Of a stretch of DNA of 64,000 nt, positions 1-11,223 are shown piece after piece. Where the stretch lies: NCBI GenBank assembly GCA_021371935.1, contig JAJFVF010000022.1:124001-188000 (forward strand). Reading direction: 5' to 3'. Below the pieces are notes generated by a model, which saw only the letters and a list, made by a program, of their open reading frames with translations, searched no databases and was not told the DNA's origin. This stretch comes from a bacterium. GTDB taxonomy: Bacteria > Armatimonadota > UBA5829. Numbering within the stretch: the first letter of the stretch is position 1; every line of letters begins with the position of its first letter. Both the position numbers and the translations under genes were made by a program.

Positions 1-1139
1 TCGGAAGCACCCAGACCGCCATCGAGGCCATGAGACTCGGGGCTTATGATTATATCACCAAACCTTTCGAGCTTGACGAACTGCAGATTGTCGCTGAACG
101 TGCACTCCAGCAGAAGAGAGTGATCGACGAAAACCGGTTCCTAAGAGGCGAACTCAAGAAGAAATACGGATTTGACAACATCATAGGAACCAACCAAGAC
201 GTCCAGAGGGCATATGTCATGGCAGCACAGGTCGCGCCGACCAATGCCACCGTGCTCATTACAGGCGAGACAGGCACAGGTAAAGAGTATCTCGCTCGAA
301 CAATCCATTACCAGAGCGGGCGGGCTTCAGGGCCGTTTGTGAAAGTCAACTGCGCTGCGCTCTCGGAAAGCCTGCTTGAAAGTGAACTCTTCGGGCACGA
401 AAAAGGAGCATTTACACACGCAGTTACCCGACATATCGGACGGTTTGAAGTGGCGGATAAAGGCACCATCTTTCTTGACGAAATTGGGGAAGTCTCACTA
501 TCGGTCCAGACAAAACTGCTTAGAGTGCTGCAGGAAAAGCAGTTTGAGCGGGTCGGCGGCAGCGAGACGCTGAATGTGGATGTCCGTGTGATTGCCGCCA
601 CTAATTGCGACCTCATGCAGGCAATCAAAGACAAAAAATTCCGTGAAGACCTCTACTACAGGCTCAATGTCATCACATTGAACCTGCCGCCAGTCCGGCA
701 GCGTGGCGACGACATAGAACTCTTTGCCCATCATTTCCTGAAAATATATGCAGACGAGACCGCAAAGAATGTGATGGACTTCAATGATGAAGCCCTCGAA
801 GCTCTGAAAAATCATGAATGGCCGGGAAATGTGCGAGAACTGGAGAATGCAATAGAGCGGGCTGTGATTCTATGCAACAGCCGCACAATCCGGCCTGAAC
901 ACCTCATGCTCAACCACAATAACCACCCCACCCCCTCGACTTCACCAAAGTCGATCATGGATGGTATAGCCCCAATGGCTCCGCTCAGGGATTTAGAGAA
1001 AATCCACATAGAACGAGTGCTCAAAGCCAAGAACTGGAACCAGTCTGCTGCAGCGCAGGTGCTCGGGATCGACAGAAAAACACTCAGAAATAAGATCAGG
1101 GAATTTCACCTGGAAAAAGAGGAATGCCAAAAAGTTTGA
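1..1139 (+). CDS. NtrC-family sigma-54-dependent response regulator, 5' truncated
   Basis: This is the 3' part of a two-component activator that would use ATP hydrolysis to open sigma-54 promoters. The frame is open to the left edge, so the receiver domain is cut; only its last helix with the conserved Lys (KPF) remains. Next come the AAA+ domain with Walker A GETGTGKE, Walker B GTIFLDEIGE and arginine-finger region, and a C-terminal Fis-type helix-turn-helix (QSAAAQVLGIDRKTLRNK). The sigma-54 contact loop reads GAFTHA instead of the usual GAFTGA, which is odd. The gene runs toward the che cluster and is convergent with cheB. rpoN lies about 7 kb away. Class is certain; target genes are unknown. 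Confidence 0.93.
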   Translation, partial: GSTQTAIEAMRLGAYDYITKPFELDELQIVAERALQQKRVIDENRFLRGELKKKYGFDNIIGTNQDVQRAYVMAAQVAPTNATVLITGETGTGKEYLARTIHYQSGRASGPFVKVNCAALSESLLESELFGHEKGAFTHAVTRHIGRFEVADKGTIFLDEIGEVSLSVQTKLLRVLQEKQFERVGGSETLNVDVRVIAATNCDLMQAIKDKKFREDLYYRLNVITLNLPPVRQRGDDIELFAHHFLKIYADETAKNVMDFNDEALEALKNHEWPGNVRELENAIERAVILCNSRTIRPEHLMLNHNNHPTPSTSPKSIMDGIAPMAPLRDLEKIHIERVLKAKNWNQSAAAQVLGIDRKTLRNKIREFHLEKEECQKV

Positions 1140-3446: not shown

Positions 3447-4418
3447 TTACAGGGGCTCTGCTACTTCCGAAATCTTCAGCGCCAGGTTTTTACCCGACAA
3501 CCCCAATACCCCTGAAAAAGCAGGCACATTCTCAATCCAAAACTCAGCCGTTCCGTTCTCTCTGATAGGCAGCTTGATTACATCTCCTACATCAAGCCCC
3601 GAAACCTCCTCGACAGAGAGCGATGTCCTGCCAAGAATCGCACGGCACTCAACTGCAACTTCCTCAAATGACTTCATCAGAACGGGATTGGTCTGGTCAT
3701 TGCCACCACCCCTGGACTGCAGACTCCTGCCGGCGGTCAGAGCTGGCAGAACCGGCTCGATTGCAGATGCGGGTAGACATATGCTCATCATACTTACATT
3801 TTCGCCTATGTTGACTTCGTATCCGCAGACCAAAACCGCCTCCGAAGGAAGCAGGACCTGCCGCGTGCTCGACTCGGTCGTCATATTTATCACGGAAGCC
3901 TTTAGTTCAACGCACCATGACCACGCCTCAATGTATTGCCGCAGGGCAAGCTCGACTACCGACCTGACGATGGCTTTGTCCACATCTGATATCGACGGCT
4001 GATTCGATGCGCCCGATGCTGACCCTCCGGCCAACAAGTCCACACATATTGAAACGAAATGTGGATTAAACTCAAATATCGCTGTCGATGTGAGCGGCTG
4101 CAAGTCGACCTCGACAAATAGTGTACCGTCCGAAACCGACGAACAATACTCGCGATAAGTCAACTGATCCAATGCCAATAGGTCCGCACGAGTATATACT
4201 CTGAGCATGGACGAAAGAGCTGAAGCAAACGCCGCTCCATGCCTTGAATGAATGGAATTGAGCGACCGCAGGTGGTCCTTGGAAAACTTGTCGGGACGAG
4301 AAAAATCATACAGCCGCACCTGCTTCTCGGGAGCCTTTGCCCCTATATCCTGTGCCCCTGTAGACTTAAAAGTCTCCATTAAAGCATTTATTTCATCCTG
4401 ATTAAGTACGTCAGCCAT
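3447..4418 (-). CDS. fliM: Flagellar motor switch protein FliM
   Basis: FliM forms the C-ring of the flagellar motor and binds CheY-P to change rotation. The N-terminus has the CheY-binding-like peptide LNQDEINALM, the middle is a CheC-like domain, and the C-terminus is a SpoA domain (GDVIKLPIRENG...). Length of 323 residues is normal. No other flagellar gene is in the window, so the rest of the flagellar regulon must lie elsewhere. It is embedded between cheX and cheC. Confidence 0.92.
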   Translation of the reverse strand: MADVLNQDEINALMETFKSTGAQDIGAKAPEKQVRLYDFSRPDKFSKDHLRSLNSIHSRHGAAFASALSSMLRVYTRADLLALDQLTYREYCSSVSDGTLFVEVDLQPLTSTAIFEFNPHFVSICVDLLAGGSASGASNQPSISDVDKAIVRSVVELALRQYIEAWSWCVELKASVINMTTESSTRQVLLPSEAVLVCGYEVNIGENVSMMSICLPASAIEPVLPALTAGRSLQSRGGGNDQTNPVLMKSFEEVAVECRAILGRTSLSVEEVSGLDVGDVIKLPIRENGTAEFWIENVPAFSGVLGLSGKNLALKISEVAEPL

Positions 4419-4447
4419 CTCTTTCGCTTCTTCCTATAGTCAGCCTG

Positions 4448-4924
4448 TTATGCGGCCGCCTGCACTGCAATCTCAGCCAATGCCACATTTACCTCGATAG
4501 TACCATATTGAGTGCATACAGGCACAACCAGGGCCGGTGTCTTGGTGGACATCTCAACACTTGTGCCGCGTATTACCGAGGGCGGAGTGATATCGACATC
4601 GTAGCCGTTGCGCGACAGCATCGTAATCGCATTGCCCGTAATCATATTGCCAAGCTCACTCAGAGCGCTAAGACCCATTCCCTCTAGACCATCAACCGGA
4701 CTGCCTACCATCATCGTCGCGATCTTCTCCGCGGTAACTAATGACATTCCATACAAAGAAACACCTTCGACATTGCCGTTGACACCGGCAACAATCGTTA
4801 CCTGCTGAGTTGTAAACGTATTGGTCCTAAGGGATATCTGTCCGCGTGTCGGCTTTTCACCTGAAAGTGTCTCCAGCACGCTGAACGCCGCACCCACAAA
4901 AGGTTCTATAAACTCGACTTTCAT
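4448..4924 (-). CDS. cheX: CheX-like CheY-P phosphatase
   Basis: The 158-residue protein belongs to the CheC/CheX/FliY phosphatase superfamily. It carries the active-site helix ELGNMITGNA (Glu and Asn separated by two residues) and the glycine-rich strand pattern typical of CheX. It would remove phosphate from CheY, whose gene follows within 50 bp of its upstream side. Having both CheX and CheC in one operon suggests graded signal termination. Confidence 0.88.
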   Translation of the reverse strand: MKVEFIEPFVGAAFSVLETLSGEKPTRGQISLRTNTFTTQQVTIVAGVNGNVEGVSLYGMSLVTAEKIATMMVGSPVDGLEGMGLSALSELGNMITGNAITMLSRNGYDVDITPPSVIRGTSVEMSTKTPALVVPVCTQYGTIEVNVALAEIAVQAAA

Positions 4925-4973
4925 TCAACTAGTCTCCTGTGCTTTCGCTCCACTGCCGCTAATCGATTTCACA

Positions 4974-5342
4974 TTATGCAGCACTCAGCGCTTTACTCAC
5001 TCCTTCTACTACCCGCTCCGGCTGGAAAGGCTTTACTATATAGTCCTTTACACCAGCCTTTATCGCATCTATGACCAGGTTTTGCTGCCCCAGAGCCGTG
5101 CACATCAGCACGACAGCGCCCGGATCCGTCTTTAGAATCTCTTTTGCCGCGGAGATTCCATCCATGATCGGCATTGTGATATCCATCAATACAGCATCCG
5201 GCTTCAGCTCGCCATAGCGCTGGACCGCTACCTGACCGTTATCGGCTTCACCGGCGACTTCAAAGCCTGCCTGTTCCAATATGCGCTTTACGGTCGCTCG
5301 CATGAACATTGCGTCGTCAACCACGAGAATGCGTTTGGGCAT
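4974..5342 (-). CDS. cheY: Chemotaxis response regulator CheY
   Basis: This is a single-domain receiver of 122 residues: acidic pair D9-D10, phospho-acceptor D54 (VLMDITMP), the Thr in MCTALG and the Lys in VKPFQ. Phosphorylated by CheA, it would bind FliM. It lies just downstream of cheR in the cluster. The lack of any output domain and the neighbourhood make CheY the natural call rather than a stand-alone sporulation-type receiver. Confidence 0.95.
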   Translation of the reverse strand: MPKRILVVDDAMFMRATVKRILEQAGFEVAGEADNGQVAVQRYGELKPDAVLMDITMPIMDGISAAKEILKTDPGAVVLMCTALGQQNLVIDAIKAGVKDYIVKPFQPERVVEGVSKALSAA

Positions 5343-5353
5343 TTCGGCCTCCT

Positions 5354-6160
5354 CTAATTACTGCACGGTTTCTTGTAAAAGAAAGAAACCATATTTTCGT
5401 AACCAATCGTTTTATAATCGGCGATCCGCTCGGTGCCGCCGACAAACAGATATCCGCCCGGCTTGAGCGAGGCAAAGAATCGCTCATACAGAGTTTTCTT
5501 CGTCTCCTCAGTAAAATAGATTACAACATTTCGGCATACGATCAAATCGAAACCGCTCTGGAAACGATCTTCAAGCATATTGTGCTTGGAGAACCTGATC
5601 ATCCTCTTTATTACATCACTTGCAACATAACCCTCAGGCTTATGATCGAAATACTTGGTCAACCGCTGACGCGACACATTCCGCATCTCGGCTTCCTGAA
5701 AAACACCCGCCTGAGCCCTCGCGAGCATTCGGTCGTCAATATCGGTTGCGTGAATGCGATGAATGCCGCCTGTGTGCATCTCATCGAGTATGACAGCCAG
5801 TGAGTAAGGCTCCGCGCCGTATGAACAACCCGCCGACCAGATATTTATACTTCTGGTCTGCATAAGCAGCTCGGGTAGTATCTTTTTGTGAAGCACATCG
5901 AACTGTTCAGGATTGCGGAAAAGCTCCGATACGTTAATCGTCACGCGGTCCAGAAACTCATCCAGCAGAGCCTTGTCATTCTGCATAAGTGAATAATACT
6001 GTGTAAAGCTCTTCGCGCCGCATCGCTCCATGTTCAACCTGAGACGGCGCTCCATCTGAGGCCGTTTATATGCATCGAGGTCGAGACTGTAAGCAGCTTT
6101 TACCTTGCGCTTGAATGATGCAAAATCAATTTCCGCAAGTTGATCCGAACTACCACTCAT
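5354..6160 (-). CDS. cheR: Chemotaxis protein methyltransferase CheR
   Basis: CheR methylates receptor glutamates using S-adenosylmethionine. The N-terminal helical domain (MERRLRLNMERCG) is followed by the methyltransferase domain with SAM motif WSAGCSYGAEPYSLAV and the motif FDLIVCRNVVIYF. The usual GEEPYS Glu is Ala here. The start codon overlaps the cheA stop by one base (TAATG), which indicates translational coupling. Confidence 0.95.
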   Translation of the reverse strand: MSGSSDQLAEIDFASFKRKVKAAYSLDLDAYKRPQMERRLRLNMERCGAKSFTQYYSLMQNDKALLDEFLDRVTINVSELFRNPEQFDVLHKKILPELLMQTRSINIWSAGCSYGAEPYSLAVILDEMHTGGIHRIHATDIDDRMLARAQAGVFQEAEMRNVSRQRLTKYFDHKPEGYVASDVIKRMIRFSKHNMLEDRFQSGFDLIVCRNVVIYFTEETKKTLYERFFASLKPGGYLFVGGTERIADYKTIGYENMVSFFYKKPCSN

Positions 6161-8208
6161 TAGGACTGTACTCCCGTTTCAGCGACTTGGCGTGGTCTTC
6201 TTCGCCTGTTTATTAAAGCCCCTATCGCTCCTACATCCACAATCAGAGCAACACGCCCGTCACCGAGTATCGTCGCGCCGGCGACGCCGTCAATATCACC
6301 GAAGAATGAGCCGAGAGGCTTAATGACCACTTCCTGCTCACCTATCAACTTGTCGACTACCAAGCCGATATTCATAGCGCCTGTGCGCACTACCACAAAC
6401 GTAATGCACTCATTATCAGATAGATGTATGCTTTGATTATGGTCAAACAACTGACCCAACCTGACAAGGTGAAGCACCGATCCACGGAAATTGATTGCAG
6501 GATGCCCATCGATATGATGGATTTCACCTGCCTCACAGCGAAATGTCTCCTGGACCGCGCTCAGCGGGATCACGTAGACCTTGTCGCCCACACCTGTCAC
6601 CAGCGACTGGATGATCGCCAGAGTCAAAGGCAAATTGATCCTGAATGTCGTTCCCTCACCAGGCTTGGTGTGGACCTCGACATTGCCGGATAGACCCTGG
6701 ATATTGCTGCGGACAACGTCCATACCTACACCGCGCCCGGAGACATCGGTCACCTTTTCTGCCGTGCTTACCCCGGAGGCGAATATGAGCTGCAGAGCTT
6801 CCTCATCGGTCATCCTGGCAAGAGTCTCTTCGCTGACAGCGCCATTTTTAAGAGCAGCAGTCTTCACCTTCTCTATTGAGATTCCATTACCGTCATCCTG
6901 AACCTCAATAATAATTCGGTTTTCTTCCTGCTTCGCAGCCAAGACGACTCGCGCCCGCTTGGACTTGCCTGCTGCAGCGCGCTTGTCGGGAGACTCGACG
7001 CCATGATCGACCGCATTTCTCAAAAGGTGAGTCAGAGGATCGACAATGTCTTCCAATATCGAACGGTCAAGCTCGGTCTCCTGACCTTCGAGTATGAAAT
7101 CGACCTCTTTGCCCGCCTTGTGCGACAAATCGCGCACCATACGCGGAAAACGATTGAATACCTGCTCAACAGGCAGCAGGCGGACCTTCATTATATGCTC
7201 CTGCAGTTCGTTGACGACACGGCCTATGTGCACCGATGTCTCGCCCAAGCCCTGCACGAGTTCCTCGTTTTCATATTTCATTGCAAGCTGAGAACCGATC
7301 TGGTTCATTCGCGTGCGATCTATCACCAGTTCAGCCACCAGGTTCATTAGGGTGTCCAGCCTGTCGACACCTACACGAACAGTCTGGATGGCTTTGGCTA
7401 CACTTCCCGAACTCGGACCTGCAGTGGGAGCTTCATCATTTTTCTTGGGCTTCTCTTGCTGATTCTGAACAGGTCGGTCCACTTGACCTGCATCATCGTC
7501 GGAAATTGTGCAGTCGATAAGCTCTACCTCGGCAAGGCTCTTGATCGCATCTATGACGGGTTCGGGACCATTGGCAGGCGTAAATGTGATGGCTATCTCT
7601 TGATCCGCTTGAATGTCGTCGAGATTGTCCTGACTCGGTTCCGATGACACTACCTCGCCCTGCATCGAAAGCGAATTGAAAACCATGAACGCCCTGACTG
7701 AAGGCATCAGGCATTCGGGCACTATTTTGACCCGGATCAACATCGCACCGGCAACATCCGTACTTTGCTTTACATTTTGAGCGGCAAGCTTTTCCACCGG
7801 TGCCTCAGTAGGCTTGTCATCTGATCCATCGGTGAGTGACTTTATACGCACAAGCAAATCACCGATCTCCGCACTAACCGGTTCTCCATTGCTAACCTGG
7901 CCGGTCATTACCCGCAGATTGTCAGTGCCCTCAAGGAGCACATCTATTATCTCGGGAGTAACTGCCAGCACGCCGTTTCTCAGCGGGTCCAGCAGGTTCT
8001 CCATGGCGTGAGTGAGCCGGGCAATCTCAGTCAGACCCATTGTTGCGGATGAACCCTTCAGTGTGTGAGCAGCCCTGAATATCTCTTTGAGTATCTCAAT
8101 ATCACCCGGGTTCTTCTCGAGCTGAAGAAAACCGTCGTCGAGTTTCAATAACTGCTCTTCGGCTTCCTCAAGAAACAGACCCATCATATCGGACATGTCA
8201 GAACCCAT
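6160..8208 (-). CDS. cheA: Chemotaxis histidine kinase CheA
   Basis: CheA phosphorylates CheY and CheB. Domain order: HPt with phospho-acceptor H48 (AAHTLKGSS), a CheY-binding-like region with charged linker, dimerisation helices, HATPase with the N-box (LLRNAVDHG) and G-boxes (GRGVGMDVV), and a C-terminal CheW-like domain. The start at 8208 is chosen because GAGAGGG lies just upstream; a frame-open extension to 8262 has no such site. No cheW lies nearby, so coupling to receptors needs a cheW encoded elsewhere. Confidence 0.95.
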   Translation of the reverse strand: MGSDMSDMMGLFLEEAEEQLLKLDDGFLQLEKNPGDIEILKEIFRAAHTLKGSSATMGLTEIARLTHAMENLLDPLRNGVLAVTPEIIDVLLEGTDNLRVMTGQVSNGEPVSAEIGDLLVRIKSLTDGSDDKPTEAPVEKLAAQNVKQSTDVAGAMLIRVKIVPECLMPSVRAFMVFNSLSMQGEVVSSEPSQDNLDDIQADQEIAITFTPANGPEPVIDAIKSLAEVELIDCTISDDDAGQVDRPVQNQQEKPKKNDEAPTAGPSSGSVAKAIQTVRVGVDRLDTLMNLVAELVIDRTRMNQIGSQLAMKYENEELVQGLGETSVHIGRVVNELQEHIMKVRLLPVEQVFNRFPRMVRDLSHKAGKEVDFILEGQETELDRSILEDIVDPLTHLLRNAVDHGVESPDKRAAAGKSKRARVVLAAKQEENRIIIEVQDDGNGISIEKVKTAALKNGAVSEETLARMTDEEALQLIFASGVSTAEKVTDVSGRGVGMDVVRSNIQGLSGNVEVHTKPGEGTTFRINLPLTLAIIQSLVTGVGDKVYVIPLSAVQETFRCEAGEIHHIDGHPAINFRGSVLHLVRLGQLFDHNQSIHLSDNECITFVVVRTGAMNIGLVVDKLIGEQEVVIKPLGSFFGDIDGVAGATILGDGRVALIVDVGAIGALINRRRRPRQVAETGVQS

Positions 8209-8280
8209 AGACACCCTCTCCAAAAAAACAGCTAAGAGCGGATGGCCCCAAACTGCCACCACTCCATTTATATGTAGGCC

Positions 8281-8486: not shown

Positions 8487-9908
8487 ATGGAAAGGTATGG
8501 TTTTAGTATGCAAGGAGCAGTACTTGCGCAGAGGCAAAGCCAGCGCACGATCCCCGTTCAAATTCAGGCAAATTCGATTCTTAATATGAGTCTGCTGGAA
8601 CTGCAGCAGTTTGTCGAAACGGAGGCTATGGAAAACCCGGCCTTGTGCATGGACGAGACTTCCAGATGCCCCGTATGCGGATTTGTGACCGTCGCGCCTA
8701 CATGCCCTGTCTGCAGCGCATCACTCGCCGCAAGCAAGATTACTACGCCCGAAGACCATGAGCGCTCATATCTGGAAAGAGCATTTGCCGCAGGAAATGA
8801 TGAACTCTTCGACCCGTTCAGGACCGTGGCAAAGTCCATGGAACTCAACGACTACCTGAAACAACAGGCCCGCATGATACTGGGTGGGCGAAAACTCAGA
8901 ATCGCCGAATACCTCATAGACTCGCTGGACGATGACGGATATTTCCGCGAATCGCTCTTTGAGACTGCGGAGGAGTTTGCGGCCGCAGTGCCGGAGATCG
9001 AATCGGTGCTGAAGATCGTGCAGAGCTTCGATCCATCCGGAATTGCGGCAAGAAATTTGCGTGAATCACTGCTGATCCAGATACGCCGTATTTCATCACC
9101 AGAACCTATCGCGCACACAGCCGAGATGATACTTGAAGACTATTGGGAAGACTTCTCGAAAGTGCGTTTCAAATCATTGGCAAAGAAACTCGAGGTATCT
9201 CACCAGGTTGTTGTGGAGGCATGCGAATACATACGCGACAACCTCACCCCTCACCCCGCATCGGCTTATCATCCGCCCTTCGAGGAGCTTGCACCTAGAG
9301 AGTCGAGCGCTATAGTGCCCGACATCATAATCCAAAAAAATGGAGATTCGTTCAGCGCAGAAGTTGTCGATTGTTACGGCAGTTACCTCAAGATCGATGA
9401 GACATATGAGGAATGCTATCAGTCGATCAAGAGCGGCGATAGCTATTTGGGCGAAGATGATTGCAAACATATTCGCGAGCACGTCGAGCGCGTTCGCTGT
9501 ATTCTCGACGCTATCAAGCTCAGGAAAAAGACACTTGCCAGAGTTGCGTCATACCTGGCTGAGTATCAGCATGACTTTCTGGCTTATGGGCCGTCAAAAC
9601 TAAAAACACTGCGTCAGAAGGATGTGGCGAAGGCGCTGGAAGTCCATGAGTCCACAATCTGTCGCGCATTATCCGACAAATACTGCAGGCTGCCCTCGGG
9701 TGAAGTGGTGTCGTTCGAGATATTCTTCGACTCAGCGCTGCCTGTGCGAAACCTCATCAGCCAGATCATAGCCCTCTCTACCGAACCTCTATCCGATGGC
9801 GAGATCACAAAGAAGCTTGCAGACCACGGCGTAACGATTGCCCGCAGGACAGTGGCCAAATATCGCGATCAGCTCAGGGTTTTGCCTTATCAGTTGAGGG
9901 CGGCGTAA
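8487..9908 (+). CDS. rpoN: RNA polymerase sigma-54 factor with zinc-ribbon insert
   Basis: RpoN directs core polymerase to -24/-12 promoters and needs NtrC-type activators such as the one at 1-1139. Region I is Q-rich and recognisable (LAQRQSQ...LLELQQFVE...NPAL). The C-terminal RpoN box reads ARRTVAKYR. Between region I and the core-binding region lies a four-Cys motif (C61-x2-C64 and C73-x2-C76, CPVCG...CPVCS), which textbook sigma-54 lacks. An upstream ATG at 8466 exists but lies in a dispersed repeat; ATG 8487 or 8508 is more likely. Length is about 473 residues. Confidence 0.92.
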   Translation: MERYGFSMQGAVLAQRQSQRTIPVQIQANSILNMSLLELQQFVETEAMENPALCMDETSRCPVCGFVTVAPTCPVCSASLAASKITTPEDHERSYLERAFAAGNDELFDPFRTVAKSMELNDYLKQQARMILGGRKLRIAEYLIDSLDDDGYFRESLFETAEEFAAAVPEIESVLKIVQSFDPSGIAARNLRESLLIQIRRISSPEPIAHTAEMILEDYWEDFSKVRFKSLAKKLEVSHQVVVEACEYIRDNLTPHPASAYHPPFEELAPRESSAIVPDIIIQKNGDSFSAEVVDCYGSYLKIDETYEECYQSIKSGDSYLGEDDCKHIREHVERVRCILDAIKLRKKTLARVASYLAEYQHDFLAYGPSKLKTLRQKDVAKALEVHESTICRALSDKYCRLPSGEVVSFEIFFDSALPVRNLISQIIALSTEPLSDGEITKKLADHGVTIARRTVAKYRDQLRVLPYQLRAA

Positions 9909-10072: not shown

Positions 10073-10492
10073 TTAGTGTGGCCTGAGCAGGGTGAGAGGA
10101 TAGAATTGGATGTTCCTGAGTATTCCAAAAACAACGATAACCGCAGATGATATCCAGTAAATTCCGACTGAGCGAAATCTTTTGCATGGGAGTTTTACCT
10201 TAAGCAGTTCTAGTAGTTCCACAACAATCGACCATGCTATTACTGGAACAGCGAAAACAATTAGGATGTTGAATGCCACTGCACCCTGCAAATTACCATG
10301 GACCAGTTGATGTAGACTTCGCAACATCCCACAGCCGGGACAGTAAAGGCCTGTCATATCATGAAAGACGCATCTCGGCAGCCAGATGCTCTTCTGAGGG
10401 TCCACGAACCACAATGCCAGAAACGCAAGCGTGATCGAAAACACCACAATTGAAGCGCGAAGAGCTTCGGCTTTTGGTAATTTTTGCATCAT
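10073..10492 (-). CDS. DUF2752 family small membrane protein
   Basis: The 139-residue protein has two to three predicted membrane segments and the family signature: a Cys in PRCVFHDMTG, then LYCPGCGMLRSLHQLVHG. Members are often encoded with RDD or zinc-ribbon proteins, as here, but their function is unknown. Its start overlaps the stop of the upstream RDD gene (ATGA), so the two are translationally coupled. Confidence 0.85.
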   Translation of the reverse strand: MMQKLPKAEALRASIVVFSITLAFLALWFVDPQKSIWLPRCVFHDMTGLYCPGCGMLRSLHQLVHGNLQGAVAFNILIVFAVPVIAWSIVVELLELLKVKLPCKRFRSVGIYWISSAVIVVFGILRNIQFYPLTLLRPH

Positions 10493-11223
10493 CTGGATCG
10501 TATTACAACGGTTCCGGCAATCCTGTCATGCCAGCCCTGCTTGGTGGGACTTGTGGCTATGGAGATAAACATCAGACCGCAAGTAACTGCAGCTAATATC
10601 GACTCCATAATATAACGTACAATCGCTGTGCCTAACCCTATGGGTGAGCCGTCCGCTTTGACTATTTTCAGTCCCAAAGCCATCTTGCCCAAAGTTGCAC
10701 CCTTGGCAGTGTTCATGCCTATGAAGTAGATAATGTTAATAAGGTTGCTAATCCAAACACCATTTGCACCCCCATTCAGCGCCTCCAGCATTGCCTTCGT
10801 GTTCTGCTCACCCGACATTGAGCCGGTTGGTTCCGTTGTTCCGCCGGTCAACATGCCGATGATATAGGCGACAAAAACCAGCAAAACTGCGTCAATAAAG
10901 TATGCGGCAAAGCGAAGACCAAACCCAGCATAATCCATTACCATCGGATAAGCGGGAGTGGGCGGAAAAACGGGATCTGCAGGCTGCTCAATGACCGGAA
11001 CAGCAGAGCTTTGGCTGCTGGATTGCCCTTGATTGCTATCTGGTAATGGGGAGGAAAGCGAGGCATCCTGCGTTACGGATGGAAGTTGACTGGGGGTTTT
11101 CTTGTTGGTGGTCCTTTGTATGGGAGTGTTTACGGGAACTCTATCCGAGCCTAAATCGAAATAGCATTGTACGCACGTGGATGTGCTGCCTTTGTTCTCG
11201 TATCCACATTTTGGACATTTCAT
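10489..11223 (-). CDS. Zinc-ribbon and RDD-domain membrane protein
   Basis: The N-terminus is a zinc ribbon (CPKCGYENKG...CVQC). A Ser/Gln/Pro-rich linker of about 60 residues follows, then an RDD domain: Arg and Asp in FGLRFAAYFIDAVLL and the later GWHDRIAGTVVI. RDD proteins are membrane proteins, some with ion-transport roles, but most are uncharacterised. It forms a two-gene operon with the DUF2752 gene. Confidence 0.87.
   Translation of the reverse strand: MKCPKCGYENKGSTSTCVQCYFDLGSDRVPVNTPIQRTTNKKTPSQLPSVTQDASLSSPLPDSNQGQSSSQSSAVPVIEQPADPVFPPTPAYPMVMDYAGFGLRFAAYFIDAVLLVFVAYIIGMLTGGTTEPTGSMSGEQNTKAMLEALNGGANGVWISNLINIIYFIGMNTAKGATLGKMALGLKIVKADGSPIGLGTAIVRYIMESILAAVTCGLMFISIATSPTKQGWHDRIAGTVVIRSR

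Follow-up and report, generated by a model that had tools for sequence, protein, structure and literature searches.

The sigma-54 factor RpoN-B, encoded in the window (the whole 64,000-nucleotide stretch analysed, from the 3.54 Mb genome G000 of an Armatimonadota bacterium), carries directly after region I a conserved four-cysteine unit with a predicted zinc-ribbon fold. The unit marks a structural variant of sigma-54 that spans whole lineages: it is the rule in the sampled Chloroflexota and, despite some losses, common in Armatimonadota. In the openly licensed literature, searches for a ribbon, CXXC motifs or cysteines in sigma-54, and for the sigma-54 of Chloroflexi or Armatimonadetes, returned no description of such a feature. 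Region II has been pictured as unstructured and variable (PMC10786286), and the solved sigma-54 structures that we found are from Proteobacteria or Aquifex. The presence of the ribbon in nearly every sampled Chloroflexota RpoN and in many Armatimonadota RpoN thus adds a major structural class that is missing from the textbook picture.

RpoN-B is a complete sigma-54 factor

The rpoN-B frame is uninterrupted and encodes a complete RpoN of 473 residues, a bona fide sigma-54 (Table 1). The AID, CBD and DBD follow one another in sigma-54 order, each above its Pfam cut-off, and the same three families (PF00309, PF04963 and PF04552) are present in all 70 members of our RpoN alignment. The RpoN box ARRTVAKYR is present (ARRTVAKYRD, residues 452-461), and the product can be aligned along its entire length with the sigma-54 chains of solved structures, while the RpoN equivalog model TIGR02395 is matched barely above its cut-off. 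The full-length AlphaFold2 model finds canonical sigma-54 chains as its first structural matches, with a TM score of about 0.6. The frame could start as early as 8466, and relatives are similar only from MQG onwards, at about 8508, so that the start codon is uncertain; the residue numbers used here assume 8487.

Table 1 Features of the window around rpoN-B.
Feature	Coordinates	Strand	Basis or remark
bEBP with contact loop GAFTHA, not GAFTGA	3..1136	+	continues upstream of the window (L254:1745-3136)
cheA, cheR, cheY, cheX, fliM chemotaxis/flagellar cluster	3447..8262	-	divergent from rpoN-B
rpoN-B, sigma-54 paralogue	8487..9908	+	start alternatives 8466 or 8508
Region I, Sigma54_AID, residues 14-53	8526..8645	+	PF00309, E 6.7e-9
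Four-cysteine ribbon (predicted) CPVC-x8-CPVC, start of region II	8667..8714	+	sequence, alignments, AlphaFold2 segment, structure matches
FDPFRT, residues 108-113, conserved 'DP'	8808..8825	+	alignment to E. coli region II finger LPVY
Core-binding domain, residues 113-307	8823..9407	+	PF04963, E 2.8e-44
DNA-binding domain, HTH and RpoN box, residues 328-467	9468..9887	+	PF04552, E 4e-32

The four cysteines form a conserved unit

Translation and the Pfam domain limits confirmed the two CPVC motifs of the original prediction between region I and the core-binding part, where C61, C64, C73 and C76 are arranged as CPVC-x8-CPVC (ENPALCMDETSRCPVCGFVTVAPTCPVC). The accompanying claim that well-studied RpoN proteins have an acidic or short region II at this place agrees with the E. 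coli protein, whose region II has a net charge of -19 and no cysteine. The length of region II is the usual one, with medians of 66-71.5 residues in the ribbon-bearing groups (all except Actinomycetota) versus 69 in the outgroup. The predicted ribbon stands in the place of the normally flexible first part of region II and is followed by the finger and the core-binding domain. D109 and P110 of the 'DP' motif are nearly invariant in the RpoN alignment, and the motif aligns with the E. coli region II finger (P110, Y112), which touches the template strand and the RNA (PMC10786286).

A sequencing artefact or a chance motif is ruled out, since orthologues from 15 related genomes, as well as about 110 further RpoN proteins, share the motif in the same register. 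The two CxxC pairs are conserved together. Among 88 RpoN proteins chosen without regard to cysteines, 70 have four or five cysteines within the 32 residues that follow NPxL, 18 were scored with none or one, and no protein has two or three; at least four of the 18 low scores (L034, L048, L226 and L227) are miscounts in which an earlier motif was caught, all four proteins having four cysteines. In a set of 60-70 diverse RpoN proteins picked by cysteine pattern, the four cysteines are invariant. They are also kept across spacing variants (x6, x7-x10, CxxxC-x6-CxxC and CxxC...CxC), as expected for a metal site.

Profile and structure searches gave zinc-ribbon matches that are weak or not significant. 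The rpoN-B product has a weak Pfam zinc-finger match (RecR_ZnF, E 0.002). In 18 of the 70 alignment members, Pfam weakly matches a double zinc ribbon. AlphaFold2 assigned pLDDT values of 87-88 across residues 11-30 of an isolated 40-residue segment, and only about 72 to the ribbon in the full-length product. The closest PDB matches of the segment in Foldseek are the Cys4 zinc sites of Nop10, eIF2-gamma, PolD, Spt4 and LapB, with an rmsd of 0.6-1.5 Å over about 20 residues and E-values that are not significant (best 0.72); the first four superpose at about 0.6 Å over 20-22 residues with E-values of 0.7-3.5. The predicted zinc-knuckle-like beta-hairpin superposes on Nop10 at 0.6 Å over 20 residues, again with an E-value that is not significant, and VIA-align of the short segment gave low scores (Z at most 3.2). 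From these observations we infer that the cysteines of the predicted ribbon bind one Zn(II) constitutively, in a structural role.

The predicted ribbon extends across Chloroflexota and Armatimonadota

The distribution of the module was surveyed with the DNA pattern [E/D]NPxL-x7-CxxC-x8-CxxC in 84,980 species, each represented by a single genome. At least 119 stretches matched. Long RpoN-like frames account for at least 113 of them, and another six, in very short frames, are chance matches. The carriers among the matches listed are mostly Chloroflexota, among them the cultured Thermosporothrix hazakensis, Dictyobacter and Ktedonosporobacter, then Armatimonadota, Abditibacteriota, UBP13 and UBP15. 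The Proteobacteria label of a few carrier MAGs is probably wrong; L083, whose RpoN was put in the tree, groups with Chloroflexota. No match to the x8 pattern was found in viral contigs.

Four Actinomycetota (two Arthrobacter, one Nocardioides and one Cellulomonas) are also among the matches listed. Their ribbon-bearing RpoN proteins (L091, L102, L068 and L162) are rare and very divergent, and rpoN itself is rare in this phylum, with 1 of 118 sampled genomes positive, namely the query genome itself.

In the Chloroflexota sample, the phylum of T. hazakensis, 36 of 101 genomes have an RpoN. Of these, 22 match the strict pattern, and of the 14 that do not, 13 have the ribbon with a different spacing, which brings the ribbon to 35 of 36 rpoN-bearing genomes. 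In Armatimonadota, where RpoN is present in 126 of 201 genomes, 28 genomes match the x8 or x6 pattern (a union counted by hand). Among 20 further loci, 13 have other four-cysteine forms and seven are without the cysteine module; one locus scored as 'none' by the script (L227) has CxxC...CxC. Several Armatimonadota lineages have an otherwise normal RpoN without the ribbon, so the ribbon is dispensable for sigma-54 function as such. The module is absent from the RpoN of E. coli, Rhizobium, Azospirillum, Bacteroides and Bacilli. The comparison across phyla that had been proposed as a check places the module mainly in Chloroflexota and Armatimonadota. The notion of an oddity of one gene did not hold, as the motif also occurs in a second RpoN of the genome, in nearly all sampled Chloroflexota and in many Armatimonadota RpoN. 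Confinement of the motif to rpoN-B or to its class is likewise ruled out by the species scan and the second paralogue.

Both RpoN paralogues of the genome carry the module

The second rpoN (paralogue A, L001) lies outside the window, about 20 kb upstream on the minus strand (G000:C22:110922-112340). Its product (NPALEVPEEDPCEGCEQPKTLCLDC) has four cysteines in the same position with a shorter spacing, CxxC-x6-CxxC (CEGC-x6-CLDC). Region II of RpoN-A is strongly acidic. Between the groups, region II has a median net charge of -16 in A and is far less acidic in B, at -4.5.

The RpoN proteins of relatives split into an A group with x6 spacing and a B group with the x8 spacing of rpoN-B. In a maximum-likelihood tree of 84 RpoN proteins, the A group is a single clade (support 99/98), the B group forms a clade with the outlier L022, which lacks the cysteines there (100/100), and the outgroups (E. 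coli, Rhizobium, Azospirillum, Bacteroides and Bacilli) separate with 100/99. The tree is unrooted and compatible both with gain of the ribbon in the carrier phyla and with its loss in the outgroups. The RpoN-B lineage in Armatimonadota is old. The occurrence of the four cysteines in both RpoN-A and RpoN-B indicates that the ribbon predates both paralogues. As RpoN-B has the module in common with RpoN-A and with Chloroflexota RpoN, it is an inherited part of the sigma factor rather than a device peculiar to rpoN-B.

B-like RpoN proteins without the ribbon occur in other Armatimonadota families (L022 in G029, L052 in G028 and L224 in G042; L022 is the one placed in the tree). Each of these three genomes keeps another rpoN with the cysteines.

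Genomic neighbourhood and sigma-54 promoters

Of the two rpoN copies, rpoN-B is the one linked to flagellar and chemotaxis genes, and this neighbourhood, or fliM alone, is retained in several relatives. The genome has just two strong bEBPs (PF00158), the activators on which sigma-54 depends; the loop of the second reads GSFTGA. The one with its 3' part in the window is preceded by a histidine kinase. The contact loop GAFTGA is near-universal, and this bEBP, which adjoins the rpoN-B neighbourhood, has GAFTHA. Near rpoN-B, other genomes of this family encode a bEBP with GAFTHA or GAFTNA, and beyond the family, in L140 and L014 from the same order, GAFTGA or GSFTGA is retained. In NorR, Asn or Asp at the contact-loop glycine yields a constitutive activator, and His is absent from the constitutive changes listed (PMC2941729).

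Exact sigma-54 promoters (TGGCAC-N5-TTGCW) occur 12 times genome-wide (L241-L252), versus 3 times in a reversed control. One site lies 33 nt before flgB, and most of the others precede genes for secreted proteins, with signal peptides judged by eye; within the window, there is no site with fewer than two mismatches. It is reasonable to suppose that two sigma-54 systems run in parallel, the one serving motility and the other surface or secreted proteins. Downstream of rpoN-B, an RDD-family membrane protein (10489-11223, minus strand) with an N-terminal zinc-ribbon-like motif, CPKC...CVQC, adjoins a DUF2752 protein.

Possible roles of the ribbon

The E. coli region II begins near the surface with a flexible stretch that enters the polymerase between the beta protrusion, the beta flap and the HTH, and is otherwise unstructured (PMC10786286; PMC7175178). 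During activation, the bEBP ring captures the N-terminus of region I through the melted DNA, and how the unfolding of region I comes to an end has been described as unknown (PMC9770992). Based on the location of the ribbon at the entry of region II and on this unknown end of region I pulling, we propose a rigid anchor or stop. We tentatively favour a constitutively folded ribbon with this role at the border of regions I and II, although we hold it with somewhat less than even confidence. The zinc-held ribbon would form a rigid knob where the chain leaves region I, which lies outside the cleft and is drawn through the melted DNA by the bEBP, and enters the polymerase. The ribbon may dock where the chain enters on the beta side, against the beta protrusion, flap and HTH, or else inside the downstream DNA channel; once docked, it would fix the entry point of region II and set the reach of the bEBP pull on region I. 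The stronger claim, that the zinc knob is unable to pass and terminates the power stroke of the AAA+ activator, is unlikely in our estimate. If it were true, sigma-54 in two phyla would have an inbuilt limit on translocation that is missing from the E. coli type. The ribbon also offers a natural handle on the extent to which region I is unfolded by the activator and on what ends the reaction (PMC9770992).

It is possible, with rather lower probability than for the anchor, that the ribbon is purely a docking domain, which would bind the core polymerase at the clamp, the flap or the downstream channel and set no limit on bEBP translocation. Such an action would resemble, by analogy, that of sigma-70 region 1.1 or of the TFIIB ribbon, the latter being a general parallel in its favour. 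The position of the E. coli region II inside the cleft and the downstream DNA channel also suits it (PMC7175178; PMC10786286), but the ribbon surface, strongly variable in the RpoN alignment apart from the cysteines, speaks against a tightly conserved interface.

Four-cysteine sites can act as redox switches, and a redox or zinc sensor, in which oxidation or zinc loss would unfold the ribbon and switch sigma-54 activity, may be envisaged on this ground. We regard it as quite improbable. Two points speak against it, though not decisively: many Chloroflexota and Armatimonadota lineages carry the ribbon without a visible common redox theme, and the unselected RpoN proteins include no intermediates with two or three cysteines.

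Slightly less credible still is a stability device, a built-in equivalent of FlgZ (HP0958) that would guard RpoN from proteolysis as in Helicobacter pylori, where the zinc ribbon of FlgZ is needed for the accumulation of RpoN (PMC3372290). Of 41 genomes of Armatimonadota relatives, 35 encode a FlgZ-family protein (DUF164/Zn_ribbon_9), among them both genomes that have the built-in ribbon and genomes that lack it, and the rpoN-B product has no match to PF02591 (Zn_ribbon_9) in a Pfam search at E up to 10. The co-occurrence leaves the idea that the ribbon replaces FlgZ unsupported. Finally, no part of sigma-54 is less conserved than region II, which also varies in length (PMC10786286), and the ribbon is missing in some lineages. 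Both would suit a tolerated insertion kept by descent with little function in a linker free to vary, but the all-or-none cysteines over two phyla, in RpoN proteins mostly about 25-40% identical to the rpoN-B product, make this very improbable.

Comparison with known systems

Compared with canonical RpoN (E. coli, Klebsiella; 5ui8, 7qv9, 8f1i and 9msg), RpoN-B likewise has region I, the finger, the core-binding domain, the HTH and the RpoN box. The start of region II is acidic, disordered and free of cysteines in the canonical proteins, whereas in RpoN-B it holds the predicted four-cysteine ribbon. The N-terminal zinc ribbon of TFIIB resembles the predicted RpoN ribbon in sitting near the segment of an initiation factor that enters the polymerase cleft; position and fold context differ, and the likeness is drawn as an analogy rather than as a claim of homology. 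FlgZ/HP0958 (DUF164, PF02591) has two CxxC motifs, a zinc ribbon and a functional link to RpoN (PMC3372290), but is a separate protein acting in trans without sequence match to the RpoN ribbon. Finally, the flagellar paralogues of the RpoN2 type (Rhodobacter sphaeroides, Xanthomonas) resemble rpoN-B as an extra copy tied to flagellar genes. They belong to Proteobacteria, whereas the Armatimonadota paralogue forms in the tree a lineage of its own that is not confined to the class.
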